A DNA stretch of 64,000 nucleotides, taken from assembly GCA_944320305.1 (NCBI GenBank), contig CALUGW010000040.1, positions 62,001 to 126,000 of the forward strand. Reading direction: 5' to 3'. The translations under genes were made by a program, and so were the position numbers. This document shows positions 2,408 to 54,666 of the stretch, in pieces. Source of the DNA: an uncultured Prevotella sp. Lineage in GTDB: Bacteria > Bacteroidota > Bacteroidia > Bacteroidales > Bacteroidaceae. How positions within the stretch are numbered: the first letter of the stretch is position 1; each line of letters starts with the position of its first letter. The notes beneath the pieces are model-generated. The model saw nothing but the letters and a program-made list of their open reading frames with translations, ran no database searches and was not told where the DNA came from.

Positions 2408-2936
2408 CGGTCAGTCCGAAAAGTCGGTTGCGCCTTAGCGGCTGTTTTTCCACGGCAGACGAGGCGTCATGCCTTGGATAAGTGGGCAAACGGTATGGGA
2501 TAAGTTTACGCCTTTGGCAGAGTGTGCCACTTCACAAAAAAGACAACCAAAGACGCAGAGCGGCATGAAACACATTGTAAAACAGGGCATATTGCATTCT
2601 AAAATAGCCTGTTTCGCGCTGCAAAATGGCCTGTTTTGCAGTGCGAAACAGGTCATTTTAGTTTGAAGCCATATGCCACAAAACAGCTGTGAATCGGCGG
2701 GAAAGTCGGCATCTTGCCTTCAAAGTTGCAATAAAAGACGCCCGTCTGCTTACGATTTTCCGTGTGTCGCCGCAATGGGTAAAATCGAGACGGCTCACGG
2801 TCGTGTTCCGATTCCGGACAATCCGCCGCAACAATGTTTTCAGACAGTCCAAAAATGGAAACGGGTTTTCAGACTGACCCAGTATTGATGCAACCAACCG
2901 GGGAAGGCGGACATATTTGGATTTGACAAAAAACAA
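2408..2936. other. Gene-free gap between convergent hisC and kdgA
   Basis: About 590 bases lie between the hisC stop and the kdgA stop. The gap holds the 22-bp repeat array at 2577-2664 and the kdg terminator at 2937-2971. Short open frames on both strands (the longest about 105 codons, minus strand) resemble no family I know and look like chance frames. No RNA gene was recognised in the rest. Confidence 0.6.
2577..2664. repeat. 22-bp tandem repeat array, locus 1 (four units)
   Basis: Four consecutive 22-base units begin at 2577, 2599, 2621 and 2643. Unit 3 starts GCAAAATGGCC and ends TGTTTTGCAGT; the others differ at several columns but keep register. CTGCAAAA/TTTTGCAG form a perfect 8-bp hairpin around unit 3, nested in a longer imperfect one built from units 2 and 4 (AAAATAGCCTGTTTCGC against GCGAAACAGGTCATTTT). 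Same family as the arrays at 12056, 22149, 39528 and 54579. Confidence 0.85.
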
Positions 2937-2971
2937 GATGGTGTGCCATTGCACTGCCGTGGCACACCATC
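2937..2971 (-). terminator. Intrinsic terminator of the kdgK-kdgA operon
   Basis: A perfect 12-bp inverted repeat (GATGGTGTGCCA / TGGCACACCATC) with an 11-base loop; on the minus strand it is followed by CTTGTTTTTTG. It lies 29 bases past the kdgA stop. Confidence 0.9.
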
Positions 2972-2999
2972 TCAAAAATAAATACTGTGTGAGAAAGAC

Positions 3000-3668
3000 T
3001 TATGCGCGTGCTTTGGCAATATATCCCAAAGCCTCAACGCATTTGTCTGTAATAGCTTTCCAATTCTTTGCTGCTACGACATCTTTCGGGAACAATTTAG
3101 AACCCATACCGACGCAATAGACTCCAGCCTTAATCCATGATGTAAGATTCTCCTCGTCTGGAGACACGCCGCCGGTCACCATCAGTTTGGACCATGGCAT
3201 AGGAGCCATAAGTCCTTTGACAAGCTTCGGACCAAGAACATCGCCGGGGAATACCTTGCAGAGGTCACAGCCGGTCTCCTGGGCGAAACCAATCTCTGAC
3301 ACGCTTCCGCATCCGGGGGTGTAGGGAATAAGACGGCGGTTGCAAACTTTTGACACTTCAGGGTTGAACAGCGGGCCTACCACGAAGCATGCTCCGAGCT
3401 GAATGTAGAGAGCGGCAGTGGCCGGATCGACTACAGAACCAACGCCAAGAGCAAGCTCTGGGCACTCTGTGGCCGCATATTTCACAACTTCAGCAAAAAC
3501 CTCATGAGCGAAGTCGCCGCGGTTTGTGAACTCGAATGCGCGCACACCTCCGTCATAACATGCTTTAATCACTTGCTTGGCGACTTCTGCGTCTTTGTGA
3601 TAGAACACAGGTACCATACCTGTCTGGCCCATTTTTGCCAGAACTGCTATTTTATCAAATTTAGCCAT
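3000..3668 (-). CDS. kdgA: 2-keto-3-deoxy-6-phosphogluconate aldolase
   Basis: Class I aldolase that splits KDPG into pyruvate and glyceraldehyde 3-phosphate, the last step of hexuronate breakdown. The 222-residue KDPG/KHG aldolase barrel shows FEFTNRGD (catalytic Glu region) near residue 46, LGVGSVVDP near 75, [11 protein letters not shown] near 95, and [12 protein letters not shown] with the Schiff-base lysine near 140, then MVTGGVSP. Its ATG overlaps the last eight bases of the small DUF4177-like gene, so translation is probably coupled through kdgK, small gene and kdgA. A strong terminator follows at 2937-2971. Confidence 0.95.
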
Positions 3669-3819
3669 TTTGTTTAATCTGTTCTTTTTCTCGTTTGAAT
3701 ATCAGATACAGACCGAGGCAATAGGAGCATACTATCTCCCATCCCTCGTCTGCTAATTTATTGATGCTTGCTTCTTCGTTCCACAAAAAGCACTTCACCT
3801 TATATTCGTAATGTGGCAT
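3661..3819 (-). CDS. Small DUF4177-like protein inside the kdg operon
   Basis: A 52-codon frame fills the 153 bases between kdgK and kdgA. It begins [13 protein letters not shown], continues with [16 protein letters not shown], and ends [16 protein letters not shown]. The pattern YEYKV, then L-x-x-EGWE-(L/I)-V, then a hydrophobic stretch closing in FKRE, is that of the DUF4177 family, whose function I do not know. The ATG lies two bases after the kdgK stop and the TAA overlaps the kdgA start by eight bases, which is hard to explain unless the frame is translated. No signal peptide is seen; the segment LGLYLIF is too short for a sure membrane helix. A KDG kinase or aldolase accessory role is only a guess from position. 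Confidence 0.82.
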
Positions 3820-3821
3820 AT

Positions 3822-4847
3822 TTACCGCTGCACACGGCCGCTGGCATCACCGCCGGCAAGTGCCTCAACCTCCTCTTTGCTCACCATATTGAAGTCGCCG
3901 GGGATTGTGTGCTTCAGGGCAGAAGCGGCAACCGCAAACTCCAAGGCCATTCCCTGATTGTCGGGATAAGTCAGCAGGCCGTGGATGAGTCCGCCTGAGA
4001 ACGAGTCTCCGCCACCAACGCGGTCAATGATTGGCATTATGTCGTAATGCTTGCTCTGATAGAAATCCTTACCGTTGTATATCAGGGCTTTCCATCCGTT
4101 GTGCGTTGCTGAAAGCGACTCGCGAAGAGTTGACACAACATATTTGAAGCCAAACTCCTTCATCATGCCCTTGAAGATGCCGTAATAACCCTCAGCATCG
4201 GTTTTGCCACCCTCAACATCTGCGTCTGGCTTGAATCCGAGGCACAGCTGCGCATCCTCTTCATTGCCGATGCAGACGTCAACATATTTCATCAAAGGCT
4301 TCATGATGCTCTGAGCTTTCTCTGACGTCCAGAGCTTCTTGCGGAAGTTCAAATCTACAGAAACAGTCACGCCGTGACGCTTTGCAGCCTCACATGCCAA
4401 TTTTGTCAGTTCTGCCGCCTTGTCGCTTATGGCAGGAGTGATGCCGCTCCAGTGGAACCAGTCAGCACCTTCCATAATCTTGTCAAAGTCAAAATCTGTC
4501 GGATCAGCCTCCGCAATGGAGCTGCCGGCCCTGTCGTAAATTACTTTTGACGGGCGCATTGACGCACCGGTCTCAAGATAATAAATGCCTACGCGGTTAC
4601 CGCCACGTGCAATAAAGTCTGTATGAACGCCGAAACGACGAAGAGCGTTGACTGCACACTGGCCGATTTCGTGCTTGGGAAGCTTTGTCACAAAATAAGC
4701 ATCGTGGCCATAGTTTGCGCAGCTCACGGCAACATTTGCCTCACCTCCGCCATAAACGACATCGAAAACATCACTCTGAACAAATCTTTTCTGACCGGGA
4801 GAAGACAATCTGAGCATAATCTCTCCCAATGTTACAACTTTTGCCAT
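3822..4847 (-). CDS. kdgK: 2-keto-3-deoxygluconate kinase
   Basis: PfkB-family sugar kinase that phosphorylates 2-keto-3-deoxygluconate to KDPG. The 341 residues show the N-terminal TLGEIMLRLS strand, GGGEANVAVSCANYG (PfkB signature 1 region) near residue 33, VDLNFRKKLW near 165, and the C-terminal DRVGGGDSFSGGLIHGLL near 275 with the catalytic Asp and anion hole. It heads a tight minus-strand operon with the small gene at 3661-3819 and kdgA. A TAAATTTG element at 4895-4902 (minus) fits the -7 consensus TAnnTTTG, though I see no well-spaced -33 element. Confidence 0.94.
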   Translation of the reverse strand: MAKVVTLGEIMLRLSSPGQKRFVQSDVFDVVYGGGEANVAVSCANYGHDAYFVTKLPKHEIGQCAVNALRRFGVHTDFIARGGNRVGIYYLETGASMRPSKVIYDRAGSSIAEADPTDFDFDKIMEGADWFHWSGITPAISDKAAELTKLACEAAKRHGVTVSVDLNFRKKLWTSEKAQSIMKPLMKYVDVCIGNEEDAQLCLGFKPDADVEGGKTDAEGYYGIFKGMMKEFGFKYVVSTLRESLSATHNGWKALIYNGKDFYQSKHYDIMPIIDRVGGGDSFSGGLIHGLLTYPDNQGMALEFAVAASALKHTIPGDFNMVSKEEVEALAGGDASGRVQR

Positions 4848-5011
4848 AATGAAAAATATTTTTTAATTATGCGAAATAATTCAATTTCTGAGTACAAATT
4901 TAATATTAATTTCTCAAATCAGAAAGCAAAACCGACAAATTCTTTGTCCTGTCAAAGATATTTGCCCTGTGGAACTTGTTTTCGCATTTGCTGACTGACA
5001 TGAGCCAGACG

Positions 5012-5749
5012 CTAATGGTTTACGCCATAGCCGAACAGAGCGAAATCACCTTTCAAAGGATCGTCCGGGAAAATTTCAGCCAGCCGATGGGTCAGTTTTA
5101 TTGCCGCGCTCATGGACGCTGTTTTGCTGCTTAATAATCCAAGCTTGACAGATTCTTGCAGAACATGGGTGTCCAATGGCATAATAAGCGTTCTCTTGTC
5201 AATGAAACTGCTCCATAATCCCAAATCGACGGGCGATCCGTCACGCACCATCCACCGAAGGAACATACAGACGCGCTTACAGGCTGAAGCCGTATTTTTC
5301 GGGATAATCACCTCTATATTTCTTTCGGAAAAATAATCACAGATAGCTTTAACGGCCTGAAGTCCTGTTGTTGCCGTTTCCTGCACATATGCGCCGATTG
5401 AGCCGTAGTCTTTCAGCATATCCTGAAATGCCGATAAGAAAGTGTACATCGTATGCATTGTGTAGAGCCGGTAATAGCATTTGCTGCTATCATCCTGTAT
5501 GTAATTTGCGAACAAGCCGGACAGAACCCAGTTATAGACATCACCTCCTGAAGAGTCAAGAATGTACTGAATTTTGGGAAAGAACTGTTTGCGGTTGCCA
5601 TAACTCAGACAAGAAGCGACAAAAGCCAATGTTTCTTGGTTGTTTCTCCCGTTCACCTGATGCATGAACCAGCTGGGGTCTGCAGGCAGGAAATCCTCTG
5701 TTTCATATCTGTCGGCATACTCTTTCAGCAACAGCTCTATATATTCCAT
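5012..5749 (-). CDS. TIGR02757 / DUF2400 family protein
   Basis: A 245-residue protein matching the TIGR02757 (DUF2400) family, conserved in Bacteroidota but of unknown function. Family features recalled and seen are NQETLAFVASCLSYGNRKQ near residue 36, CKRVCMFLRWMVRDGSPVDLG near 158, and LIMPLDTHVLQESVKLGL near 188, with a C-terminal DFALFGYG. The HTHV/DFALFGYG end recalls helix-hairpin-helix DNA glycosylase folds, but I do not claim that activity. No signal peptide or membrane segment. It lies alone between the uxaB terminator and the kdg promoter region. Confidence 0.88.
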   Translation of the reverse strand: MEYIELLLKEYADRYETEDFLPADPSWFMHQVNGRNNQETLAFVASCLSYGNRKQFFPKIQYILDSSGGDVYNWVLSGLFANYIQDDSSKCYYRLYTMHTMYTFLSAFQDMLKDYGSIGAYVQETATTGLQAVKAICDYFSERNIEVIIPKNTASACKRVCMFLRWMVRDGSPVDLGLWSSFIDKRTLIMPLDTHVLQESVKLGLLSSKTASMSAAIKLTHRLAEIFPDDPLKGDFALFGYGVNH

Positions 5750-5766
5750 GATTTAAGCAGATAAAA

Positions 5767-5802
5767 AGTGGACTTCGATTGGAATACCAACCAAAGCCCA
5801 CT
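5767..5802 (-). terminator. Intrinsic terminator of uxaB
   Basis: On the minus strand AGTGGGCTTTGGTTGG pairs with CCAATCGAAGTCCACT (16 bp, with only G-U wobbles as exceptions) around a TATT loop, followed by five T residues. It lies about 35 bases past the uxaB stop. Confidence 0.93.
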
Positions 5803-5835
5803 GTCGAATTTATAATAAGGATAATCTCACTTTTA

Positions 5836-7275
5836 TTAAAGAATGGTCTTTACTGCCTCAAGCATACCTTTTTCCTGAATAAGGTCAAGGTATTGCTTAA
5901 CCAATGCGTTCAGCCCCTTAACCTCGTTAAGGTTTTCATTCCATATTGATGTTGCGCCAAGCACTCCGTCTGCAACTTTCTGTGTGTCGCCGGTAGCCCA
6001 AAGCTCTTTCAGCAGGTCCATGATTTCCTGTGAGTCGTTAGGAACAATCGGTGTTCCGTCTTCACGCTGGCCGCCTTTATAGTACGTAATGATTGCTGCC
6101 AATCCGAATACAAGACCGCGTGGAAGTTCGCCTTTGCGCTCAAGATAAACTTTTACGCCGGGAAGGTCGCGTGCGCAGAACTTGGGGAAAGAGTTGAGCA
6201 TGATGCTCGTAACCTGATGGTCAACATACGGATTGTCAAAACGCTCAAGCACGTCTTTCGCAAACTTCTCCAATTCTTCCATCGGAAGATCAAGTGTCTG
6301 CATCAGTTCGTCAAACTGAACCTTGTGGATGTATTTGCCGATCACCTCATGGTTGCAAGCGTCGCGCACGATGTTTACCCCGCTGAGGAAGGCAACGGGC
6401 GACAGAACGGTGTGCGGGCCATTGAGCAAAGTCACCTTGCGCTTGTGATAAGGCTCCTCCGACGGAACGAAGAGAACGTGCAGTCCGGCCTTGTCGGCAG
6501 GGAATTCATTAGCAATTTCCTTCGGAGCCTCGATTACCCACAAGTGGAAGTTCTCGGCCTGAACAACCATATTGTCGCGGTAGCTTATTTTCTCTTGAAT
6601 CTCTGCAATCTCTTTGCGCGGGAATCCCGGAACGATGCGGTCAACCAAAGTTGCATAGACACCGCAACTGTTGTCAAACCACTCCTTGAACTCTTTCGGG
6701 AGTTTCCACAATTCGATATATTTGTTTATGCAGTCTTTCAGCACATGGCCATTGAGGAAAATAAGCTCACAGGGGAATATGATAAGACCCTTTGTCGGGT
6801 CGCCATTGAATGTCTGCCAACGGCGGTACAACAGCTGCACAAGCTTGCCGGGGTAAGACGATGCCGGAGCATCTTCCAATTTGCAGGCAGGATCAAACGC
6901 GATACCGGCCTCTGTCGTGTTGGAAATGACGAATCTTATTTCAGGCTGGTCGGCCAGCGCCATGAACGCCTGGTTCTGAGTGTATGGATTCAAAGCTCGG
7001 CTTACAACATCAATACGCTCAAGAGTGTTGACAGGCTGACCGTTCTCACGCCCCTGCAGATTGACATGGTAAAGGCAATCCTGCCCGTTCAGCATGTCAA
7101 TCATGCCATGCTCCAATGGCTGTACGATTACGACAGAACCGTTAAAGTCTGTCTTCTGGTCCATGTTCCAAATAATCCAATCAACAAAAGCACGGAGGAA
7201 GTTTCCCTCACCAAATTGGATTACCTTTTCAGGCATAACGCTCTTAGGCGCAAAGTGTTTGTTTAATGGTTTCAT
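5836..7275 (-). CDS. uxaB: Tagaturonate reductase (altronate oxidoreductase)
   Basis: NADH-dependent reduction of D-tagaturonate to D-altronate in galacturonate catabolism. The 479 residues fit the mannitol dehydrogenase-type family: EKVIQFGEGNFLRAFVDW near residue 16 (nucleotide-binding start), VISNTTEAGIAFDP near 115, IIFPCELIFLNGHVLK near 160, and LLNGPHTVLSPVAFLSG near 285 (Lys/His catalytic region typical of the family lies around VTLLNGPHT). Monocistronic, with its own promoter (7310-7341) and terminator (5767-5802). Partners UxaA (51736) and KdgK/KdgA (3000-4847) are in the window; uronate isomerase UxaC is not. Confidence 0.94.
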   Translation of the reverse strand: MKPLNKHFAPKSVMPEKVIQFGEGNFLRAFVDWIIWNMDQKTDFNGSVVIVQPLEHGMIDMLNGQDCLYHVNLQGRENGQPVNTLERIDVVSRALNPYTQNQAFMALADQPEIRFVISNTTEAGIAFDPACKLEDAPASSYPGKLVQLLYRRWQTFNGDPTKGLIIFPCELIFLNGHVLKDCINKYIELWKLPKEFKEWFDNSCGVYATLVDRIVPGFPRKEIAEIQEKISYRDNMVVQAENFHLWVIEAPKEIANEFPADKAGLHVLFVPSEEPYHKRKVTLLNGPHTVLSPVAFLSGVNIVRDACNHEVIGKYIHKVQFDELMQTLDLPMEELEKFAKDVLERFDNPYVDHQVTSIMLNSFPKFCARDLPGVKVYLERKGELPRGLVFGLAAIITYYKGGQREDGTPIVPNDSQEIMDLLKELWATGDTQKVADGVLGATSIWNENLNEVKGLNALVKQYLDLIQEKGMLEAVKTIL

Positions 7276-7309
7276 AATAATGTGTTTAATTATGTTTCAG
7301 TGCGTAATG

Positions 7310-7341
7310 CAAAGATACGCTGTTTTCAGCAATAATGCAAA
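7310..7341 (-). promoter_or_regulatory. Bacteroidota-type promoter of uxaB
   Basis: Minus-strand TATCTTTG at 7310-7317 fits the -7 consensus TAnnTTTG, with TTTG at 7338-7341 about 20 bases upstream as the -33 element. The -7 box is about 35 bases before the uxaB ATG. Confidence 0.75.
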
Positions 7342-7453
7342 TAATTATTTCATAATTTACAACGTAAACCTTTACGTTTTTTCATTGACATGAGCCACCG
7401 CGTCATTAGCGGCCTGCAAAATGCCGACTTGCGGAAAACTGTGCCAGCGGGTC

Positions 7454-8077
7454 TCACAGTTCAATTCCGATGGAATCCATGGCTTTTTGAGCCTGTAGGC
7501 TGTTTTGCTCATTGAGTCCGGCAAAGCGCACAACACTTGCAAAGGCCGCTTTTCCGACTGTCAATGATTTGCTGCAAATTGCGGACATAGCCCTTGCCAG
7601 AAACTCATCGGCCACCTGTTTCTCCGGCACAAATCCTTTCATAAACATACGCGACAGCACATGAAAGCCGCACAGCTGGCGCAACTCGTCTTCAGAAGCA
7701 ATCCATTTTAAGGATTCATTTTTTACAAACGGAATATATTGATAGAGGTTCATGGACGCCTGTTCTGCGATTTCAACAGTCTCTGTCTGAGAAATCCAGG
7801 CGTCAACATCTTCTGGGCGCATTTCTTCTGCAGGCATTATCAGAGTGGCAAGAATCTTGCACTCACGAATGTTTTCTTTCCACAATGCAATTGCCAATCC
7901 ATAATCCTTGCCGTATTTTTTTGATATTTCCTTGAGTGCAGGCAGATCCACGCCCCAATTAAGACGGTAGTGCAGACCCTTCTCTCTCATGGACTGGGCA
8001 ACCACGCCGTTCATAATCAGTCTGAAAGAACGCTTGATTTCCCCCACCCTGTCATCAGCTTTAATATTTTCATTCAT
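7454..8077 (-). CDS. AlkD-like DNA alkylation repair protein
   Basis: A 207-residue all-helical protein resembling the short AlkD/DUF HEAT-repeat DNA alkylation repair proteins common in Bacteroidales. Features seen are LHYRLNWGVDLPALKEISKKYG near residue 37, LAIALWKENIRECKILATLIM near 60 (the helix pair typical of AlkD, W-x-S/N-x-x-x-E-x-R), and MRPEDVDAWI near 88. AlkD glycosylases remove alkylated purines; in these short relatives activity has not, to my knowledge, been shown. Cytoplasmic, no signal. It lies after dipeptidyl peptidase III on the same strand, 73 bases downstream of its stop. Confidence 0.82.
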   Translation of the reverse strand: MNENIKADDRVGEIKRSFRLIMNGVVAQSMREKGLHYRLNWGVDLPALKEISKKYGKDYGLAIALWKENIRECKILATLIMPAEEMRPEDVDAWISQTETVEIAEQASMNLYQYIPFVKNESLKWIASEDELRQLCGFHVLSRMFMKGFVPEKQVADEFLARAMSAICSKSLTVGKAAFASVVRFAGLNEQNSLQAQKAMDSIGIEL

Positions 8078-8150
8078 AAGCCTTAATGTCAGTCTGTTAT
8101 CATGCTATTATATAATATAAAAACATATAATACAATCCGAATGCGACTTG

Positions 8151-10100: not shown

Positions 10101-10155
10101 TTTCTGTTGTGTTTTGTTCTTTATGATCCAAAGCCGCTGGTCCGGCTCCGCCGCC

Positions 10156-10596: not shown

Positions 10597-10725
10597 ATCG
10601 TAAATATTGAACGGTCACAAAGATACGAAAAAATAAGCGTTCCAGAATGAAAAACGGCCTGAATTTTCAATTAATGAGGGAAATTAGTTATGCCGAATAA
10701 AGCACAGGCAGGTGCAGCAAAAGAA

Positions 10726-11844: not shown

Positions 11845-12253
11845 GCTTTTTTATCAGTTTGTCCGTTTATGCCGGCAGCTTGCTTTCCCTACGGCTTAGG
11901 GCTGTTCCGCAAAAAAATGGAATCTGCATAAATATCGAACATTAGCGCATAAATATTGACAGCCGGTGCACCTCTTATCGGCAGATAAATGCATAACGAG
12001 CCGTCTTTTTTGCCACAGGAGACCGGCTCTGTAAATTGTTGATATTCAACAAATTGCAAAACAGGCCATTTTGCTCTTCAAAATGGCCTGTTTTAGAGCA
12101 TGAAATGGCCTATATCACAATGCGAAATGACCCATATTGAAAATCACAATGGCCGGTTCCAGCTTTTCGTGTGCCTCAGAATGTGCAAAAATGTGCGTTG
12201 GTCGGTCTGGCTGTGCCGTGTGTCGCATTGCATATTTATACAAGTCCGGAACT
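11845..12253. other. Gene-free gap with repeat array locus 2
   Basis: Between the SPFH stop and the phytase-like start (both minus). Besides the 22-bp array (12056-12165) it has a small dyad TTGTTGA-TAT-TCAACAA just before the array and a GAGCCG/CGGCTC hairpin near 12000. The first 200 bases presumably carry the promoter of the phytase-like gene, but I cannot pick a clear -7 box. The one long plus-strand frame reaching into the SPFH gene is its antisense shadow. Confidence 0.55.
12056..12165. repeat. 22-bp tandem repeat array, locus 2 (five units)
   Basis: Five units in strict register start at 12056, 12078, 12100, 12122 and 12144. Units 1 and 2 form a perfect 16-bp inverted repeat, AAAACAGGCCATTTTG (12058-12073) against CAAAATGGCCTGTTTT (12079-12094) with a 5-base loop. 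Units 4 and 5 are more degenerate. With TTTT following on both strands the hairpin could also end transcription after the SPFH gene, though that is inference. Confidence 0.87.
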
Positions 12254-13198
12254 CTACTCAGCCTTGAACAATTCTTTTATTCCGCCGATGCTGCCCATCA
12301 GATTCGTCGCCTCGTATGGCAGATAAACGGTTTTTGTCTTGTCGCCTTGTGCTATTTCCTCAAGGGTCTTGATGTATTTCTGTGCCAGAAGATAGTTGGC
12401 CGGATTTGTAGAGTCGCCCACAGCCTCAGTTATCTTGCGTATGGCGATAGCCTCGGCCTCAGCCTTGCGTATGCGCGCCTGAGCTTCGCCCTCAGCGTTC
12501 AGGATGGCTTCCTGCTTGGCCGCCTCGGCCCTGTTGATGGTTGCCATTTTCTCTCCCTCAGACTGAAGTATGTCGGCCGCTTTCTTGCCTTCGCTGGTCA
12601 GTATGGTCGCCCGCTTGTTCCGCTCGGCCTGCATCTGTTTTTCCATGGCGGCAAGCACGCTGGCCGGCGGTGTTATGTCCTGCAGCTCCACGCGGTTTAT
12701 CTTTATTCCCCACTTGTTGGTGGCGTCGTCAAGCACGGAGCGCAGCTTCGTGTTGATGGTGTCGCGGCTTGTCAGTGTCTCGTCAAGCTCAAGCTCTCCG
12801 ATGATGTTTCGCAGCGTTGTCTGGGTCAGTTTCTCAATCGCATTCGGCAGATTGTTTATCTCGTAGACCGCCTTGAACGGGTCTACAATCTGGAAATACA
12901 GCAGTGCGTTGATTTCTGTCTGCACATTGTCTTTTGTAATGACGTTCTGCTTGGGGAAATCGTACACCTGCTCGCGCAGGTCAATTACAGAAGAATAGGC
13001 ATAACGCCCGCGCTGGAGAACGACAATTTCCTTGGCTCTGTCTATGAATGGGATTATCAGGTTGATGCCCGGTGGCAGCGTGGCATGGTATCTTCCGAGC
13101 CGCTCCACAATCTTTGTCTCTGACTGCGGTATGATAACCAGAGCCATCTTAGCGAAAATCAGTACGCACACAACGCACACAATCAATACATAAATCAT
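12254..13198 (-). CDS. SPFH/Band 7 domain membrane protein (stomatin/paraslipin, QmcA-like)
   Basis: A 314-residue stomatin-type protein thought to scaffold membrane microdomains. One N-terminal membrane segment (IYVLIVCVVCVLIFAKMALV) is followed by the Band 7 core: ETKIVERLGRYHATLPPGIN, then LREQVYDFPKQNVITKDNV, then DETLTSRDTINTKLRSVLDD near residue 135, and an Ala/Glu-rich coiled coil (ILNAEGEAQARIRKAEAEA) near 235. It is paired with an NfeD protein immediately upstream (stop of nfeD three bases before), the classic SPFH-NfeD partnership. The partner in E. coli is QmcA with YbbK neighbours; membrane quality control is the usual proposal. Confidence 0.95.
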   Translation of the reverse strand: MIYVLIVCVVCVLIFAKMALVIIPQSETKIVERLGRYHATLPPGINLIIPFIDRAKEIVVLQRGRYAYSSVIDLREQVYDFPKQNVITKDNVQTEINALLYFQIVDPFKAVYEINNLPNAIEKLTQTTLRNIIGELELDETLTSRDTINTKLRSVLDDATNKWGIKINRVELQDITPPASVLAAMEKQMQAERNKRATILTSEGKKAADILQSEGEKMATINRAEAAKQEAILNAEGEAQARIRKAEAEAIAIRKITEAVGDSTNPANYLLAQKYIKTLEEIAQGDKTKTVYLPYEATNLMGSIGGIKELFKAE

Positions 13199-13200
13199 AG

Positions 13201-13656: not shown

Positions 13657-13682
13657 AAACAATAATTTTGATTTAACCGCAG

Positions 13683-13690
13683 TAAAGTTA
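13683..13690 (-). promoter_or_regulatory. Possible -7 element of the nfeD-SPFH operon
   Basis: Minus-strand TAACTTTA differs from TAnnTTTG at the last base only and lies 27 bases before the preferred nfeD ATG. It supports the shorter start. No clear -33 element. Confidence 0.4.
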
Positions 13691-14852: not shown

Positions 14853-14872
14853 AAAAGAAGTCTATTTTGTTG

Positions 14873-22148: not shown

Positions 22149-22258
22149 CCCAAACAAGCCATATTACTCTGCAATATAGGACATTTTGCACTGCAATATA
22201 GGCCATATTGCAGCGCTATTAAGGCCGTTTGGCAGTGTCATTAAGGCCGTTTTGCATA
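22149..22258. repeat. 22-bp tandem repeat array, locus 3 (five units plus a decayed sixth)
   Basis: Units start at 22149, 22171, 22193, 22215 and 22237; a sixth, badly decayed one may follow at 22259. Here the units run mainly as direct repeats: GCAATATAGGCC appears in unit 3, GCAATATAGGAC in unit 2, and TTAAGGCCGTTT in units 4 and 5, each followed by a TTGCA or TGGCA end. This direct orientation distinguishes it from loci 2, 4 and 5, where neighbours are inverted. Confidence 0.87.
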
Positions 22259-39283: not shown

Positions 39284-39527
39284 ACTCCACGCCTGCAAGC
39301 CCGTAAATGCCAAGCAAGGCAAGACATTGCCCGATTCTGGCGCAATATAATTCAGAATTAAGCAGAAGAGACAAGGGCAGGCAATACAGCAAAGGCGCAA
39401 TAAAAGCAAAACCGCAAGGACAAGAGTGCATAAATATACAACTCAAAACAGCAGGCAACGCCCCGGACAATGGACAGGAAACTGCCGCAGGGCACAGGTT
39501 TTATGGCGGCACAGGCTTGCTGATTTT

Positions 39528-39615
39528 CCAATATAGGCCGTTTGGGCTTCCCAAACGGGTCTTTTTGCCTCCTAATATAGGCCATTTTGCAATGCAAAAT
39601 GGCCTATATTACAAT
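39528..39615. repeat. 22-bp tandem repeat array, locus 4 (four units, 39-bp perfect palindrome)
   Basis: Units start at 39528, 39550, 39572 and 39594. Units 3 and 4 together make a perfect 39-base palindrome, 39573-39611: 19-base arms beginning TAATATAGGCC around a single central A. Units 1 and 2 form a second hairpin, CCGTTTGGG-CTT-CCCAAACGG. The array is thus two head-to-head pairs. Confidence 0.88.
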
Positions 39616-39754
39616 CATCTGAGTATCAAGCCGTTACGTCTGTGACGCTTGATCTGCAAAAATTATTTGAAAAATCTGTTTTCAAGGGTTCCATTCTTCT
39701 TCACACTTGAATATTAATGCAGGCGGGAAGGAATATTTATGCACAAACAAAAAA

Positions 39755-42637: not shown

Positions 42638-42669
42638 AAACGCAATACATCTGGTATTTTTTTGAAAGA

Positions 42670-44319: not shown

Positions 44320-44364
44320 ATATTCTGTCTCTGTTTTATTGCAAAATAAATTTCAATACATCTC

Positions 44365-46853: not shown

Positions 46854-46903
46854 TTTACTTTATTATTTTGATTAAAACAAATCGGAATATCTCCAAATCC
46901 CAA

Positions 46904-47386
46904 TTACAGATACACCCCAACGCCTACCCGCAAACCAATTGTACTATAATCTCCATGATTCTTGAACGACTGGTTGTAATAAATCTCGGGTTCTATTGTG
47001 ACTTTCTCATTTAAGAAAAAAGCATATCCGACCTGTATGCCGGGCATAAAATCATCATAATCGTCACCAGCGTGCACATAACTCATGCCGGCTCCAAGAT
47101 ACAGACCGTTCTGAACTATATAATATCTCGCGCCTAATGCAGCATTGAATGACGAAGGAATGTCATGCTTCTTGTCATACCCCAACTGAGCAGTGACCAT
47201 CCAATTGTCCTCAAAAATATATCCGCCTTTTGCTTCAATTCCGAAACTGCCTTTTGACAAGCCGTTATAGCTCAAATCCATACTTGAAACAGACGCGCCA
47301 ACATACTTTTTGCCCGACTCAAACTGGGCAAAAGATGCCGCAGAAACAAACATGGCCATAAACATGGCCAAAAGAACCTTTCTCAT
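46904..47386 (-). CDS. Small outer-membrane beta-barrel protein
   Basis: About 160 residues from ATG 47386 (MRKVLLAMFMAMFVSAASFA signal peptide). Eight alternating amphipathic strands (for example FGIEAKGGYIFEDNWMVTAQ, ALGARYYIVQNGLYLGAGMS, VGYAFFLNEKVTIEPEIYYN) and the C-terminal VGVGVYL with an aromatic close to the end suggest an OmpA/OmpX-like 8-stranded barrel (outer membrane beta-barrel domain, PF13505 type). Function unknown. The frame extends ten codons to 47416 but the signal peptide fixes the start. Confidence 0.88.
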   Translation of the reverse strand: MRKVLLAMFMAMFVSAASFAQFESGKKYVGASVSSMDLSYNGLSKGSFGIEAKGGYIFEDNWMVTAQLGYDKKHDIPSSFNAALGARYYIVQNGLYLGAGMSYVHAGDDYDDFMPGIQVGYAFFLNEKVTIEPEIYYNQSFKNHGDYSTIGLRVGVGVYL

Positions 47387-47577
47387 ATCCAATTTTTCTA
47401 AAATTATCCATATCACAAATACTAAAATGCAGCGGACTGCCTGTCTCTGTCTGCCGAAACATCGAATGCAGCATTAAAAACAAACATTCATTCCACAGCC
47501 AGCAAGCGTTACCGGCCACATTCAGCCATTGCATCTGCAAAAATAGCTATTTAATTCGAGAAATGGGAAAAATAATC

Positions 47578-47585
47578 ATAACTTT
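47578..47585 (+). promoter_or_regulatory. -7 element of the GHL10 glycosidase gene
   Basis: TAACTTTG, 22 bases before ATG 47608. It lies inside the longer reading frame from 47563, which therefore cannot be the real start if this promoter is used. Confidence 0.65.
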
Positions 47586-47607
47586 GCACACAAACAAGAA
47601 TAAAATC

Positions 47608-49299: not shown

Positions 49300-49339
49300 T
49301 TGGCGGCGGCACGTGTTTCCACGCTTCCGGCTACGGGTT

Positions 49340-50458
49340 CTATTCTTCGATGTGTGTCAGCGAATGTGCGAAAGAAGCCACAAAACTCGTCAGGGCTTCC
49401 GCCGGATAGAAGTTGAAGAAACGCGCAAGATGCTTTGCCTGCCATGTCATCGCCCCCATGTTGCTTGTGCGCACAAATATGTTTTTCCCCTGAGTGAAAT
49501 ACCACTCTTCGTTATGATTGGCGGTAAGCAAGAATATGTCATCCACTATTTTATCGATTCCCAAGCCAAGTTTTCTGCCGACAAACAGCATTTCGTCTTT
49601 ATCAAATCCGAACAACTCTGTCAACAGCGCGCCTTCCACTTCCGCCATCCGTCCCAGACCAAGCACGGAAATCCACTTTTTCAGTTTCCCGTAATCCACA
49701 TCGTCTCCGGCGTTTCTGACAAGCATTCCCAGGTCTATCACCTGTTTCAGACTGATGCCGTCATTGATTATATAGCGCGCGATCCGCAAGACAGCCAGCA
49801 GCAGCCTCAGCGTTGCCGGAACCACCTCAATCTTTGTGTCTTCTATGCGGATATATTCAGAGTCGCAGCAACTTATCTCGCTGCTAATGATGTTCTGCAG
49901 CTTTCGGTTCAGAAAAGAGTTCGTAAGCCGCTGCGCGGTGGTGTAGTGCTCCACCGTCAGCCCGTTCCATGTATAGATCAACGTGCCCTTTTCCGTCCGG
50001 CTTACGGCTTTTCCGTTCTCCTTTGCCCAGGCTTCGGCCTTGTCTGCCTGCGGCTTATAAGGGAAAAAAATGTCCACATCGCCACAGGTGCGGTGCAGCG
50101 GATTGCCGTAAAGCGTTGCCGCGCCGACCCCATGAAGCATGATGGGGCGCAACTGTTCTTTGTTGAAAATGCCGAACAGCTCCGCCATGGGAGCGTAAGC
50201 CGCCCGATTGGCATTTTCTGTCTCTTCTGCTGTTTTGCGCCATTTGTCCGCAAGTGCCGGCGGAATCTGCAGGAAGAAATCCTCCGCACAGTTGTTTATA
50301 CCGTCATTGATCAGTGCTGCCACACTGTGCATGAGCGATATGTTGTACAGCCGGTTCCATTTCCATGGCGACATCGGCTCTATCGACTCTGAGGCTGTTC
50401 CAAAAGCCCCGCTCCGCAGCAACCGGAAAAAGTTGCGCTGTATAACGTCCGTCTTCAT
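49340..50458 (-). CDS. Nucleotidyltransferase family protein
   Basis: About 372 residues of the uncharacterised nucleotidyltransferase family (PF14907 type). The core motif is LHGVGAATLYGNPLHRTCGD then VDIFFPYK near residue 105, the G-x-D-x-D form of a nucleotidyltransferase metal site (G-D-V-D-I). The C-terminal part is helical. Start ATG 50458 overlaps the nhaC stop by four bases (ATGA); the longer frame to 50737 lies inside nhaC. Substrate unknown; its place behind uxaA-nhaC has no obvious reason. Confidence 0.85.
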   Translation of the reverse strand: MKTDVIQRNFFRLLRSGAFGTASESIEPMSPWKWNRLYNISLMHSVAALINDGINNCAEDFFLQIPPALADKWRKTAEETENANRAAYAPMAELFGIFNKEQLRPIMLHGVGAATLYGNPLHRTCGDVDIFFPYKPQADKAEAWAKENGKAVSRTEKGTLIYTWNGLTVEHYTTAQRLTNSFLNRKLQNIISSEISCCDSEYIRIEDTKIEVVPATLRLLLAVLRIARYIINDGISLKQVIDLGMLVRNAGDDVDYGKLKKWISVLGLGRMAEVEGALLTELFGFDKDEMLFVGRKLGLGIDKIVDDIFLLTANHNEEWYFTQGKNIFVRTSNMGAMTWQAKHLARFFNFYPAEALTSFVASFAHSLTHIEE

Positions 50459-51735
50459 TTTGAGAATCTCCGAGGATACCTGAACACAATCGAAGCCACA
50501 GTGGCGAGTCCTATTGCGAATGGATAGTACAGATAAGGAATGAGGCTCACAGGGTTTACCGCCGCCAGCCCGGCTCCCATCAGTATCTGCGCGCCATATG
50601 GGATCACTCCCTGAACACAGCACGACATTGTGTCGAGTATGCTCGCGCACTTGCGGTTGTCCACTCCATAGCGGTCGCCGATGTGCTTTGCTATGTTCCC
50701 CACTGTTATTATCGCCACGGTGTTGTTTGCCGTGCAAATGTTCACGACACCCACCAGCGCCGCAATGCTCAGCTCTGCGCCCCGCATGCTCCTTACGTGT
50801 TTCGTGATGACTTTAATGATGCAGTCAATGCCGCCGCGCTCTTTTATAAGTTCCAGCATTCCGGCGGCAAGCATTGTTATTATGATCAGCTCGCCCATGC
50901 CTGTGATGCCGGCGCCCATTGCCTGGAGCCAGCCGAACACGCTGAAAGAGCCGTCCGCAATGCCTATCAGCCCTGTCAATGCAATGCCGAGGGTGAGCAC
51001 GGCCATCACGTTCATGCCGAAAATGGCTGTGACAAGCACCACGACATATGGCAGCACTTTCACCACATCTGCCTCCGGAACTGCGGCCGGCGCCTGGATG
51101 TCTGTGCCGAGCAAGGCATAAAGCGCAAGAATGATCACCGCCGGAGGAATTGTTATGAAAGCGTTCACTCTGAACTTGTCGCTCAGACGGCAGCCCTGGG
51201 TCGATGTCGCGGCGATTGTCGTGTCAGAGATAAACGACAGATTGTCTCCAAAAAACGAACCGCCCACGACAACGGCCGTCAGCATCGGCACGTCGGCTCC
51301 TGTCGAGTGGGCGATGCCTGCGGCTATCGGGGCAAGGGCCACAATCGTTCCCACGCTCGTGCCGATTGACAGCGAAATGAAGCAGGAGGCCAGAAAAAGC
51401 CCCGGCAGCAGCAGTCCGTCCGGCAACAGGGCGAGAGTGAGGTTGACCGCTGCGTCAATGCACCCCATCATCTTGGCGCTGTTGGCAAATGCTCCGGCCA
51501 GGATGAAAATCCACAGCATAAGCATCATGTTGTCAGTGCTGGCGCCACGGCTGAAGATGTCTATGCGGCGCCGGAGCGGCATTCCGCCGCTCACGGCAAC
51601 AGCATAGACAGACGATATCATGAATGCCACTGTTATCGGCACCTTGTAAAAGTCGCCCGCAATGACCGAGACTCCGAGATACAAGGCCACGAACACTATC
51701 AGCGGGCTGAGGGCTATGAAGCCTTTGCGGTCCAT
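50455..51735 (-). CDS. NhaC-type Na+/H+ antiporter
   Basis: A 426-residue membrane protein with about ten helices. Conserved segments are GTSVGTIVALAPIAAGIAHS near residue 125, VVVGGSFFGDNLSFISDTTI near 155 (the NhaC/ArsB-type acidic loop DNLS-FISD) and GVVNICTANNTVAIITVGNI near 320. Antiports Na+ (or another cation) for protons, or a malate/lactate-type exchange in some NhaC relatives. It starts directly at the uxaA stop and overlaps the next gene, so transport linked to altronate use is possible but unproven. Confidence 0.9.
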   Translation of the reverse strand: MDRKGFIALSPLIVFVALYLGVSVIAGDFYKVPITVAFMISSVYAVAVSGGMPLRRRIDIFSRGASTDNMMLMLWIFILAGAFANSAKMMGCIDAAVNLTLALLPDGLLLPGLFLASCFISLSIGTSVGTIVALAPIAAGIAHSTGADVPMLTAVVVGGSFFGDNLSFISDTTIAATSTQGCRLSDKFRVNAFITIPPAVIILALYALLGTDIQAPAAVPEADVVKVLPYVVVLVTAIFGMNVMAVLTLGIALTGLIGIADGSFSVFGWLQAMGAGITGMGELIIITMLAAGMLELIKERGGIDCIIKVITKHVRSMRGAELSIAALVGVVNICTANNTVAIITVGNIAKHIGDRYGVDNRKCASILDTMSCCVQGVIPYGAQILMGAGLAAVNPVSLIPYLYYPFAIGLATVASIVFRYPRRFSK

Positions 51736-53229
51736 TCAGAGTGTCACTCCGTTCTTGAAGATGGCTATCTCGCGGTAGCCGTTGGCCTCGTTGCGCGCTT
51801 TCTCGCCGCTTGCCACTGCCAGCACCTTGCCTATGAAGTCGCGCACAAGCTCCTTCATCGGCCTGCCCTCCACAAGCTGCCCCGCGTTGAAGTCAATCCA
51901 GTTGGGCTTGCGGGCTGCCAGTGTGGGGTTGGTGGCAATCTTCATTGTGGGCACGAAAGTGCCGAAAGGCGTGCCCCGCCCTGTTGTGAAGAGCACTATC
52001 TGGCATCCCGCAGAGGCGAGCGCCGTGGCGGCCACCAGGTCGTTGCCCGGAGCCGACAGCAGGTTCAGGCCGCTTTCGCTCAGCCTGTCGCCATATTCGA
52101 GCACACCGCTCACCGGCGCCCTGCCGCACTTCTGCGTACACCCCAGAGCCTTGTCTTCCAGAGTCGATATGCCGCCGGCTTTGTTTCCCGGCGAAGGATT
52201 CTCACCAACCGGCTCGCCGTGGCTCAGGAAATACTCCTTGAAGTTGTTGACCATGCTCACGGTCTTTTCAAACAGCTCCTCATTCTTGCAGCGGTTCATC
52301 AGTATTGTCTCCGCGCCGAACATCTCAGGCACCTCCGTCAGGATTGTTGTGCCGCCCTGGGCCACGAGCCAGTCGGAAAACTCGCCCACAAGCGGATTGG
52401 CCGTTATGCCGCTGAAGCCGTCGCTGCCGCCGCATTTCAGGCCCACGCGCAACTTGCTCACGGGCACATCCTGCCGCTCGTCGGCCTTTGCCTTGGCATA
52501 GAGACCGCGCAGTATCTCCATGCCGGCCGCCAGCTCGTCGCCCTCCACTTTCTGCACTACAAGGAACTTCACGCGCTCCCTGTCATAGTCGCCCAGCAGT
52601 TCTTCAAACTGGTCCGGCTGGTTGTTCTCGCAGCCGAGCCCCAGCACCAGCACGCCTCCGGCGTTGGGGTGCAGCACGATGTCGCGCAGAATCTTGCGCG
52701 TGTTCTCGTGGTCGCCGCTGAGCTGGGAGCAGCCGTAGTTGTGGTGCCAGGCATAAATTGAGTCCACACCCTGGCAGCCTGTCTCCTGCTGGAGCATGGC
52801 GGCCAGTTTCTCCGCAATGCCGTTTACGCACCCCACCGTCGGCACAATCCATATCTCATTGCGGGTGCCCACCTCGCCGCCGGCTCTCACATAGCCCTTA
52901 AAGCTCAGCTTTTCGTCCTTGATGTCAAGTGCCTCACTCACAGGATTGTAAGTGTATTCCAGCGTTCCGGCCAGATTTGTCTTCAAATTGTGCTCGTTAA
53001 CCCAGTCGCCCGCCTTGAGGCTCTCTGCCGCATGGCCTATGGGGTAGCCGTATTTTATGATGTCTGCGCCCTTGCCTGTGTCTTTGATAAGTATTTTGTG
53101 GCCGGCGGGTGTGTCCTGGCTCACAGTTATTTCAGCTCCGTCAACTTCTATTTTTGTTCCCTTTGCGACGGGCTGCAGGCAGACGACCACAGTGTCTGCC
53201 GGATTGATTTTTATGAAAGTCTGTTCCAT
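51736..53229 (-). CDS. uxaA: Altronate dehydratase
   Basis: Converts D-altronate to 2-keto-3-deoxygluconate. 497 residues with the SAF domain at the N-terminus (VVVCLQPVAKGTKIEVDGAE, then AGHKILIKDTGKGADIIKYG with the conserved His/Lys) and the large catalytic domain: GCVNGIAEKLAAML near residue 130, HNYGCSQLSGDHENTRKIL near 160, GLGCENNQPDQFEE near 200, KCGGSDGFSGITANPLVG near 275 and TTGRGTPFGTFVPTMKIATN near 420 with metal-site cysteines in the GC motifs. It follows the LacI regulator by 47 bases and abuts nhaC. Product feeds KdgK at 3822. Confidence 0.95.
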   Translation of the reverse strand: MEQTFIKINPADTVVVCLQPVAKGTKIEVDGAEITVSQDTPAGHKILIKDTGKGADIIKYGYPIGHAAESLKAGDWVNEHNLKTNLAGTLEYTYNPVSEALDIKDEKLSFKGYVRAGGEVGTRNEIWIVPTVGCVNGIAEKLAAMLQQETGCQGVDSIYAWHHNYGCSQLSGDHENTRKILRDIVLHPNAGGVLVLGLGCENNQPDQFEELLGDYDRERVKFLVVQKVEGDELAAGMEILRGLYAKAKADERQDVPVSKLRVGLKCGGSDGFSGITANPLVGEFSDWLVAQGGTTILTEVPEMFGAETILMNRCKNEELFEKTVSMVNNFKEYFLSHGEPVGENPSPGNKAGGISTLEDKALGCTQKCGRAPVSGVLEYGDRLSESGLNLLSAPGNDLVAATALASAGCQIVLFTTGRGTPFGTFVPTMKIATNPTLAARKPNWIDFNAGQLVEGRPMKELVRDFIGKVLAVASGEKARNEANGYREIAIFKNGVTL

Positions 53230-53276
53230 AGTTATGGTATGTTTGTTAGTAATTCATCATGCATTCGTCTCCCGGT

Positions 53277-54344
53277 TCAGATTTGTGTCCGCCGGTAGAA
53301 GTCCACGTTCTCCTTTGTCAGAATCTCTATGGGCATATAGTTCACCGGCGTGATTTCCTTTTTCAGCACTATTGCCTCGAAGAGCGACTCCACGCATGCA
53401 TAGCCCTGCATATAACCGTGCTGGGCTATGAGAAACGATATCGAGCCTTGCCTCACGCACTCAGCGTTCTTGTTCACCATGTCGTAGCCCATGATCTGTA
53501 TGTTGCGTCTGTTGCTCCTCAACAGGAACTCGCCCACCAGATGGGCCTTTGAGTTGAACGTTATACAGTGGTGCACCTCCGGGTTGGCGGCGAAGAAGTC
53601 CTCGAGCATCTCGTCATACTCTGCCTTGTCCTTGTCCTCGGGCAGGTCCAGCTCGATGATGCCGGTGTCGGGGTAGTGGTCGCGCATATAGTGGCGGAAT
53701 CCGGTCTCGCGGTTCTCCTGCTGCTTGCTGGCCACGATGCCGTTCTTCGTCTGCTTCATCAGCATCACGCTCTTCTCGCCTCCGGCAATGAGCATGAGCA
53801 TCTTTCCGGCAAAATATCCGCAGCAGAACGAGTCCTGACCGTAGAACGACAGCGGCTTCAGGTCTGGCAGATAGGAGTCGAGCAGTATGAACGGTATGTT
53901 GCGCTCGTGCAGCACGTCGGTGAACCGCCTCGTTATGTCGAGCCGCGTCGGCACTATTATTATGCCGTCGGGATTCTGTGCAAGACACTCCTCCGTGACT
54001 TTCACAAACGTCTCAGGCTTGAAGCGTTTGTAGTACAGCATCTTGACGTTTATGTTGAAGTCGCGCCGACGGTCGCGCGCGCTCATAGCCCCCTCCTCTA
54101 TCTCGTCCCAATAGGCCTCGGTCTCGTGCTTGGGTATTATGCAGTAAAAGCTGTATGTCTTGTTATAAGCCAGGGCACTGGCATACATATTGGGGTGGTA
54201 GTCCATCTCCTTCAGTGCCTTCTCCACCTTTTCCCTGGCCGACTTCGACACGTTGGGCCTGTTGTGCAGCACCCTGTCCACCGTGCCCACAGACACGCCC
54301 GACTGCCGGGCGATGTCCTTTATTCTTATTTTGTCGGGAGTCAT
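53277..54344 (-). CDS. LacI family transcriptional regulator
   Basis: A 355-residue regulator. HTH domain about residues 7-27: IRIKDIARQSGVSVGTVDRV, hinge helix region RPNVSKSAREKVEKALKEMD, then YHPNMYASALA. The rest is a type I periplasmic-binding-like effector domain with DGIIIVPTRLDITRRF, NIPFILLDSYLPDL, GYFAGKMLMLIAGGEKSVML, and ENVDFYRR at the end. First gene before uxaA, so it probably senses a uronate (tagaturonate, altronate or galacturonate) and controls the lacI-uxaA-nhaC operon. The operator was not located with confidence. Confidence 0.92.
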   Translation of the reverse strand: MTPDKIRIKDIARQSGVSVGTVDRVLHNRPNVSKSAREKVEKALKEMDYHPNMYASALAYNKTYSFYCIIPKHETEAYWDEIEEGAMSARDRRRDFNINVKMLYYKRFKPETFVKVTEECLAQNPDGIIIVPTRLDITRRFTDVLHERNIPFILLDSYLPDLKPLSFYGQDSFCCGYFAGKMLMLIAGGEKSVMLMKQTKNGIVASKQQENRETGFRHYMRDHYPDTGIIELDLPEDKDKAEYDEMLEDFFAANPEVHHCITFNSKAHLVGEFLLRSNRRNIQIMGYDMVNKNAECVRQGSISFLIAQHGYMQGYACVESLFEAIVLKKEITPVNYMPIEILTKENVDFYRRTQI

Positions 54345-54578
54345 GTCTTCTGTGTTGTCTTAATCCGCTACAAAAATACCAATAAATTTTGAATTGTGCG
54401 AATGCACAGCGCAATATTTTGCCTTGCGGCCAACTTCGTTTAGGAAACGCCAGACGCTGCGCCAATGCTTTTGTGGGCCAAGACCGATGGCAGGCTGCCG
54501 ACAGACGGCGTTACTTGCAAATATGCAACTAAAAACAGCGCCGTGCGGGCGGATTCAGCCCACCTGCCGTTTTGTCTT

Positions 54579-54666
54579 GCAATATAGGCCATTTCATCCT
54601 GCAAAAAGGGCCATTTCGCAGTGCTAAACGGCCTATATTGCAAGACGGAATGACCTTTATCGCAAA
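54579..54666. repeat. 22-bp tandem repeat array, locus 5 (four units)
   Basis: Units start at 54579, 54601, 54623 and 54645. A perfect 17-bp inverted repeat, GTCTTGCAATATAGGCC (54574-54590) and inverse (54630-54646), links unit 1 with unit 3 around a 39-base centre. Unit 4 is the most decayed. Same register and consensus as the other four loci. Confidence 0.87.

Follow-up and report, generated by a model that had tools for sequence, protein, structure and literature searches.

Quasi-regularly spaced arrays of 22-bp near-palindromes in Prevotella genomes as candidate composite protein-binding elements

Introduction

Several 22-bp protein sites lie close together at the ends of the transposons Mu and Tn7, and IHF participates in Mu. 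BIME-1 binds IHF between its REPs, and the operators of ArgR are 18-bp palindromes 2–3 bp apart with a pitch of about two helical turns. Palindromic sites dispersed over the chromosome are known from the nucleoid-occlusion systems Noc and SlmA. How the topological domains of bacterial chromosomes, roughly 10 kb in size, are delimited has long been an unanswered question, and we know of no accepted sequence element with a spacing of about 10 kb for them. Porphyromonas gingivalis, the host of the BrickBuilt elements, belongs to the same order of bacteria as the genome studied here. BrickBuilt has a 23-nt unit (AGAYCATARTATCCTCTCRTRTG) with 1 to 22.8 repeats per element and is present in 19 copies (PMC4596501). 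As for REPs, their palindromes are reported as preserved (PMC2817692).

We analyzed a window of 64,000 nucleotides, meaning the whole stretch of DNA under study, from an uncultured Prevotella sp. A preliminary description had reported five arrays of 22-bp units in it and had offered three readings, namely REP- or MITE-type bricks, arrayed binding sites on one face of the helix, or structured RNA ends. This interpretation is partly supported: the second reading fits best with regard to pitch, symmetric half-sites, little covariation and an in-phase second palindrome. We tentatively propose that the arrays may be composite protein-binding elements, combining an array of dimer sites with a bending site, which are quasi-regularly placed and would most likely organise the chromosome.

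Results and Discussion

All five arrays were found where they had been placed before, each in 22-base register (Table 1). From the 22 units claimed, 21 were recovered at a score of at least 9 by a profile iterated on the genome, the missed one being the unit at 12144, the last of array 2. The T at column 14, said to occur in every unit, is present in 98% of the 280 units that this profile finds in 859 kb. The scan of the source genome (Prevotellaceae, G000, completeness 99.93) that had been suggested revealed 61 arrays with at least three units in the 859 kb as well as 28 single-unit matches, and 188 of the 209 steps within arrays are exactly 22 bp. With the first profile, 144 units at score 12 were detected in 459 kb versus 7 in one Markov shuffle. 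Extrapolation leads to about 190 arrays for this genome, about 70 per megabase, and the arrays are short, mostly with 3–6 units. The absence of further copies, a lack of the 22-bp phase or an equal frequency in genes had been named as observations speaking against a family, and the arrays showed none of them. Spacers are indeed missing, the linkers being mostly 3 bp, and a CRISPR array was rejected since unique spacers of near-equal length are lacking.

Table 1: Features of the five arrays and their flanks in the window.
Feature	Position	Strand	Basis or remark
Array 1, class B, four 22-bp units (+--+)	2577..2661	.	register check, genome profile
Complete class B element enclosing array 1, imperfect inverted GTCYGAAAA-type ends	2410..2850	+	copy comparison
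Array 2, class D, four units above threshold and a degenerate fifth	12056..12162	.	register check, profile
F2i-type second palindrome AACnnnYTGAnnnTCARnnnGTT, abuts array 2	12033..12055	.	2 mismatches
Pair of GCATAAATAT sites in the left flank of class D, at 11926 and 11947 (21 bp apart)	11926..11956	.	
Array 3, class A, five units, all +	22149..22255	+	register check, profile
Motif in the left flank of class A, TTAACACTTC...GAAATAGAA	22068..22096	+	
Array 4, class D, four units (+++-)	39528..39612	.	register check, profile
F2i-type palindrome, abuts array 4 at right	39613..39635	.	1 mismatch on minus strand
Class D left flank site GTGCATAAATAT at array 4	39426..39437	+	exact inverted partner 39733-39744
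Array 5, class C, four units (++--)	54579..54663	.	register check, profile
Class C left flank site TTGCAAATATGCAACTAAAA at array 5	54515..54534	+	
F2i-type palindrome, abuts array 5 at right	54665..54687	.	2 mismatches on minus strand
Palindrome in the right flank of class C, TTAACGTTTTTAA / TTAAAAATGTTAA	54703..54729	.	

Each unit consists of a symmetric, near-palindromic 19-bp site and a 3-bp linker. The pitch is exactly 22 bp in 96 of 96 steps in P. lacticifex and in 92 of 96 in the genome G043, and the profiles of these two genomes and of the source genome were untrained on spacing. Neighbouring units had been regarded as often inverted. Long inverted repeats are present because the unit consensus is near-palindromic, but inversion itself is not above chance, with 93 of 188 adjacent 22-bp pairs in opposite orientation. 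Paired columns are mostly complementary at the level of independence (3-17, 0.48 vs 0.45 expected; 2-18, 0.74 vs 0.74). Non-independent pairs are 1-19, 5-15, 7-13 and 8-12 in the source genome, the first three with a small complementary excess, 3-17 and 9-11 in P. lacticifex and 8-12 in G043; the junction pair 13-7 of the source genome is non-independent as well (.51 vs.40 expected).

Selected hairpins are unlikely because the paired bases show so little covariation, and this bears directly on the idea that the arrays are structured RNA ends or terminators. The near-palindromes, the long inverted repeats and the few column pairs that are partly dependent would be in line with it. Yet complementarity is at chance level for most pairs, unit orientation is free, gene pairs show no consistent bias and no preference for the convergent ones, the pitch is exact at the DNA level and the window had 0 Rfam matches at the gathering score. 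We thus rejected hairpin or terminator RNA, a reading with hardly any probability left. Units of the same array are not clearly closer to each other than to those of different arrays in the source genome (identity.686/.681) or in P. lacticifex (.692/.712) and only somewhat closer in G043 (.697/.664, reached in 0 of 300 shuffles), which led us to reject recent minisatellite growth.

The five arrays had been described as located in the largest gene-free gaps and not tied to one type of gene end, and in the source genome most arrays are outside genes. On five contigs with 57 arrays (four arrays on C5 stretches omitted), 54 have their midpoint outside open reading frames of at least 150 amino acids, such sequence being 16.5%, and three inside, and gene-pair orientations are without consistent bias. 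Distances between arrays are quasi-regular with a median of about 8–12 kb and a minimum of 6.4 kb in the source genome (800 kb tested). Spacings below 6 kb amount to 0 of 52 in the source genome, 0 of 23 in P. lacticifex, 5 of 26 in G043 and 6 of 49 in a fourth genome, G016, versus means of 17.0, 5.8, 9.6 and 16.7 after random placement into gene gaps. For P. lacticifex the coefficient of variation alone is weak (84 of 1000 random sets; 40 of 2000 when genes were called differently). In G016 the two longest array-free stretches contain a Mu-like prophage and a restriction-modification island, and subtracting both, with bounds set by eye, lowers the coefficient from.62 to.39. Long array-free stretches also exist in the source genome and P. 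lacticifex, which we count against an organising role.

Arrays between genes of every orientation and a symmetric, two-sided structure might also be expected from dispersed transcriptional insulators or roadblocks, where the bound array would halt read-through between transcription units. This is doubtful, as 54 gaps of the source genome carry an array versus 142 other gaps of at least 200 bp, even spacing is unexpected for such a function and there is no tie to convergent pairs.

The five arrays of the window fall into four element classes, each with its own conserved flanks, which the preliminary description had missed. Class B is present in 8 copies of 437–441 bp in the fetched sequence of the source genome, with sharp borders and imperfect inverted ends, the latter observed in this class only. 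Classes A and C have fairly sharp borders too, class A with a long conserved right flank, and in classes C and D conservation is found mainly in short motifs with free spacers. The GCATAAATAT sites at array 2 have an inverted partner near 12229-12241. A second palindrome, which we take to resemble the IHF consensus, adjoins the arrays in 27 of 57 cases in the source genome, 23 of 27 in P. lacticifex, 30 of 36 in G043 and 37 of 50 in G016, versus 1 of 117, 4 of 59, 1 of 54 and 4 of 64 gaps without arrays, respectively (172 positions searched beside arrays, 148 in controls). Its distance from the array is fixed and in phase, mostly 11–13 or 33–35 bp and in G016 also 57–59 bp.

The class B copies in particular, together with the borders of classes A and C and the long right flank of class A, make it a serious rival that the arrays belong to non-autonomous MITE-like elements: the array would bind a transposition protein, target immunity would space the copies and genic insertions would be lost. 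Over-dispersion is expected from target immunity, two genomes rarely have an array in precisely the same position, and the ends of Mu and Tn7 carry several 22-bp transposase sites. On the other hand, inspection by eye of the ends of the 8 class B copies, the precise limits of which are uncertain, revealed no target-site duplication; copies look old in the source genome and P. lacticifex because units of one array have diverged about as much as units of different arrays; the flanks of classes C and D are kept mainly as short motifs; and G016 has the same anatomy as the source genome with a quite different unit sequence. Altogether we regard such spreading as possible but somewhat unlikely.

From the first of the earlier readings, the MITE-like appearance of class B stands, but its REP and BrickBuilt parts are hardly supported. 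The BrickBuilt consensus is by eye unrelated to the 22-bp profile (PMC4596501), so that identity was rejected; BrickBuilt has a leader and a tail with IS5-type TIRs, the published TIRs are GAGACCTTTGCA-like, and class B ends are GTCYGAAAA-like. REP or BIME elements generated by a Y1 transposase (RAYT) would match the extragenic location, the high copy number, the clustered palindromic units in mixed orientation, the lineage-specific sequence and the IHF-like neighbour. However, a search of the nearly complete source genome for the RAYT-like transposase that had been suggested returned nothing for PF01797 at E 0.001, while matches were obtained in 27 of the 40 genomes covered, and complementary covariation is low, unlike in REP palindromes, which are reported as preserved (PMC2817692). 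A RAYT/REP origin is thus largely refuted for this genome and very improbable as a reading.

The layout is common to four genomes, the source genome, P. lacticifex, G043 and G016. A de novo palindrome-period test (four centres, at least 22 pairs) gave period 22 in 21 test windows from 100 loci of relatives versus 0–8 for other periods and 11 at the harmonic 33, and in 25 test windows of P. lacticifex versus 0–2 elsewhere and 8 at 33. Several matches in relatives fall within long reading frames and probably arose by chance. The test fails to detect the arrays of G016, where the palindromes are weaker and period 22 was seen in 2 test windows. It gave 0 in 60 kb of G009, G006 and G007, and 1 at period 22 with 0–3 elsewhere in a sample of 196,558 bases that covers 16 further families of this order. 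No family-wide unit emerged from G003, and G010 has two or three convincing arrays only (124 units vs 115 in a shuffle).

Conservation of arrays at the same place is weak. In a strict test of 16 gaps, arrays were present in both genomes in 0 and in one genome in 3. At block level 6 of 8 arrays of the source genome in syntenic blocks match at block ends, but three alone have an identical neighbouring gene, and of the 14 arrays that the other genome has in these blocks, 8 are without counterpart in the source genome. The one block common to the source genome and P. lacticifex is bordered by arrays on either side in each of the two, and for arrays at synteny breakpoints the odds are 2.2 (p 0.08), the counts being non-independent.

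What has been computed is the pitch, the symmetry, the near-zero covariation, the composite anatomy, the intergenic over-dispersed placement and the four-genome layout. For the composite protein-binding elements that we favour, we infer that a symmetric dimeric DNA-binding protein would recognise the 19-bp near-palindromes. Given the exact 22-bp pitch, a small number of dimers, in most cases three to six, would line up along the same helix face, and an HU/IHF-type protein probably bends the adjoining DNA, as the second palindrome resembles a doubled IHF site. The elements would be held at quasi-regular distances in gene gaps of any orientation and would most likely serve as anchors of loops or supercoil domains rather than in the regulation of single genes. 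Against this reading we count the MITE-like class B copies, the weak conservation of array positions, the non-independent column pairs, the closer similarity of units within arrays in G043 and the weak coefficient of variation in P. lacticifex. The predicted reader protein must then have changed its specificity between lineages. It was not found among the candidates compared, two Lrp/AsnC paralogues in six genomes, which are unlikely readers since their recognition helices (SRAAIHQRVQ in Lrp1, SGAAIHQRIQ in Lrp2, by our own helix assignment) are identical in 6 of 6 genomes, where a reader would be expected to vary with the unit. Beside an HU gene the source genome codes for a protein with an HU domain, an apparent membrane span and a LysM domain. 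A bolder and distinctly improbable picture would be that evenly spaced anchors divide Prevotella chromosomes, with a fast-evolving dimeric reader, an HU/IHF-type bend and the HU-LysM protein as possible wall tether, fastening the chromosome about every ten kilobases. Of these anchors the DNA anatomy alone is established, and reader, tether and function are conjecture.

Conclusion

The arrays are a directly testable candidate for a domain element, as their positions are known, they are present in the cultured P. lacticifex JCM 34664 and long contigs are at hand. A constant layout with species-specific spelling of the sites hints at an undescribed mode of bacterial chromosome organisation. If the elements are instead mobile with immunity, they would offer a plain example from nature of how target immunity can determine the layout of an entire genome.

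Compared with known systems, the sites of Mu and Tn7 are non-palindromic and located at element ends, whereas the arrays are symmetric and central. ArgR acts on few genes through two boxes, in contrast to about 70 arrays per megabase, and Noc and SlmA sites are single, fewer and not arrayed. The conjectured turnover of reader specificity between lineages might be likened to centromere or PRDM9-type turnover. With REP/BIME elements the arrays share the intergenic location, high copy number, near-palindromic clustered units in mixed orientation, lineage specificity and the IHF-like neighbour, but they differ in their fixed 22-bp pitch, few units, little covariation, missing RAYT match and even spacing at the kilobase scale. 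BrickBuilt elements likewise are intergenic and made of short tandem units without long spacers, but from a 23-nt brick instead of mostly 3–6 near-palindromes of 22 bp (PMC4596501).

Results and Discussion

The preliminary description had reported five arrays of tandem units in exact 22-base register in the window, and both their positions and their register proved right. The genome scan proposed there, run with a profile that was seeded with the 22 units and refined iteratively over 858,751 bases of this genome (the window and 40 stretches), detected 298 units with a score of at least 9 in 89 groups, which comprise 61 arrays of at least three units and 28 single matches, the step being exactly 22 in 188 of 209 within-group steps. 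The window's genome, G000, consists of 41 contigs, and extrapolation to its 2.72 Mb gives about 190 arrays. A 63-base model (R1) gave at least 222 matches in the whole genome, a number that is no array count because matches on the two strands overlap and scoring covered 150 of 1454 candidates.

The unit GCAAWAYRGGCCRTWTTGC has 19 bp followed by three loose bases, and its orientation is free, as 95 neighbouring pairs show the same and 93 the opposite orientation. The groups counted as arrays hold 3–6 units each. Four element classes (A–D) share this core and differ in their conserved flanks, and the flank motifs are rarely found without an array when a unit within 250 bp is taken as the measure (see table). 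Many P. lacticifex arrays have, as judged by eye, a special inverted pair of the CCAATACATG type as the outer half-sites of their first and last unit, which gives them the look of a bounded structure. A 33-bp tandem pair, separate from the arrays, is located within an open reading frame at 12434–12496 of the window.

Element classes, flank motifs and candidate genes
Feature	Position	Assignment or count
Window array 1		class B
Window arrays 2 and 4		class D
Window array 3		class A
Window array 5		class C
A-left motif		19/19 matches within 250 bp of a unit
A-right motif		15/16 matches within 250 bp of a unit
B-left motif		8/9 matches within 250 bp of a unit
B-right motif		8/8 matches within 250 bp of a unit
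C motif		13/15 matches within 250 bp of a unit
D motif		10/10 matches within 250 bp of a unit
HU and HU-LysM protein pair	L120:1176-2899 = G000:C3:21176-22899	

Related arrays are present in other genomes. P. lacticifex has 26 arrays of at least three units in 400 kb (96/96 steps of 22) and G043 has 36, 33 of them with at least three units (92/96 steps), the array density of both being biased upward because the stretches were chosen around matches. G016 belongs to the same genus and consists of one contig; its unit is GTAATTTGAnKCAAATTAC, and 50 arrays were found in 540 kb, with no array of three units in one shuffle. The pitch (154/170 steps of 22) is partly built in, as training of this profile relied on units having a neighbour 22 or 44 away. 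A profile trained likewise for G004 (unit GCAAAAGGCcGCCTTTTGC) gave 8 groups in 60 kb, 6 of them with 22-bp steps, and 66 units vs 26 in the shuffle. The signal in G010 is weak, and no genome-wide unit was found in 60 kb of G003, where two adjacent 22-bp palindrome arrays (L160:11303 and L160:19331) have unrelated sequences (TTATACACGTTTGTATAA and TTGTTCGCGAACAA). Period 22 is also prominent in relatives' loci without any consensus. As few candidates per genome were scored, the model searches give lower bounds: the window-type model matches at least 11 of 199 family genomes, its own included, and in the order-level search its own genome only, of 99, among the matches listed. The G016-type model matches at least 5 of the 199, with at least 1–5 matches each; the window's genome is not among the matches listed, and G004 alone is common to both lists. 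A GCGCGTATTTG-like motif in the outer right flank is common to class A and G016 elements and conserved despite their differing units. A 22-bp array of different sequence lies directly downstream of panC/panD-like genes in the Prevotella loci L058, L065, L081 and L100 (near 7200–7460), about the same place as window array 4. The protein that we take to be PanC-like has uncultured Prevotella (81%) and Marseilla massiliensis (79%) as best named relatives, and nearly all of its 80 matches listed are Prevotella or Prevotellaceae.

For the placement in the window's genome 57 arrays on five contigs were used, four on C5 stretches being excluded. Array midpoints fall outside ORFs of at least 150 aa in 54/57, 26/26, 27/33 and 50/50 cases (window's genome, P. 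lacticifex, G043 and G016, in this order throughout). Compared with 1000 runs of random placement in gene gaps of at least 200 bp, spacings below 6 kb are scarce, with 0/52, 0/23, 5/26 and 6/49 vs random means of 17.0 (least 8), 5.8, 9.6 and 16.7; 1, 9 and 0 runs were as low for the latter three. The spacing CV is.37,.63,.51 and.62 vs.83,.80,.78 and.83 at random, reached by 0, 84, 4 and 11 runs. The longest array-free stretch of G016 (42.9 kb) contains a Mu-like prophage (C1 about 118–151 kb; L153, L154, L248) that lies within an otherwise regular array run and has Portal_Mu and AAA_22 matches (five of 32 ORFs scanned). The second longest (26.9 kb) contains an island (C1 about 72.7–96.3 kb; L151, L152) with VapE-like, HTH_17 and type I restriction-modification matches (five of 19 ORFs scanned), and subtracting both, with bounds set by eye, brings the CV from.62 to.39. 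P. lacticifex has a 43-kb array-free gap, and the one long gap inspected in the window's genome (C40 154–184 kb) holds ordinary metabolic genes in the five of 20 ORFs scanned.

Mobile elements with target immunity would be a less likely but serious alternative explanation. Class B is MITE-like, having 437–441 bp in all 8 copies found and imperfect inverted ends; no target duplication was seen by eye in these copies, and their internal mean pairwise identity is.65–.87 in 40-column windows. Class B copies keep at least 6.4 kb away from other arrays, for which either immunity or selection could be sufficient.

As to hairpin or protein site, in three genomes most paired columns show complementary letters at about the frequency expected if the columns were independent. 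An excess was seen in the window's genome at 1–19 (0.56 vs 0.46), 5–15 (0.56 vs 0.48) and 7–13 (0.41 vs 0.37) and between columns 13 and 7 of adjacent units (0.51 vs 0.40), and mutual information exceeds shuffles also at 8–12 there, at 3–17 and 9–11 in P. lacticifex and at 8–12 in G043. On balance, the half-sites look as if they are read separately, i.e. by a symmetric protein. Unit identity within vs between arrays is.686 vs.681,.692 vs.712 and.697 vs.664 in these three genomes, reached by 26, 300 and 0 of 300 label shuffles.

A second palindrome, F2i (AACnnnYTGAnnnTCARnnnGTT, up to 3 of 14 mismatches, within 70 bp), accompanies 27/57, 23/27, 30/36 and 37/50 arrays vs 1/117, 4/59, 1/54 and 4/64 array-free gaps, at 172 positions per array vs 148 per control. 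When no more than one mismatch is allowed, the first three genomes contain 20, 10 and 10 copies vs 0, 1 and 0 in a shuffle. Its centre lies mostly 11–13, 33–35 or (G016) 57–59 bp from the array edge, in steps of about two helical turns. Half of F2i fits what we take to be the IHF consensus, WATCARnnnnTTR, and the six genomes searched have 3–8 HU/IHF-family matches each. In the window's genome the gene of a 94-aa HU protein precedes that of a 479-aa protein, which carries a HU domain at its N-terminus, LysM at its C-terminus and, between the two, a hydrophobic stretch that looks by eye like a membrane span; the larger protein is, conjecturally, a candidate tether. HU-family matches with ORFs of comparable size also stand in tandem in G016, G004, G010 and G041. 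The two Lrp/AsnC proteins per genome are unlikely to explain the changing unit, as what we take to be the recognition helix of each is identical in 6/6 genomes.

Conclusion

In summary, the arrays are real and form a family of composite elements with even spacing, and searches of the open full-text literature found no description of such arrays in Prevotella. The elements look like protein-binding sites. That they organise the chromosome is our best guess, rated at somewhat below an even chance; a recheck of synteny and covariation lowered it slightly and slightly raised that of MITE-like mobility.
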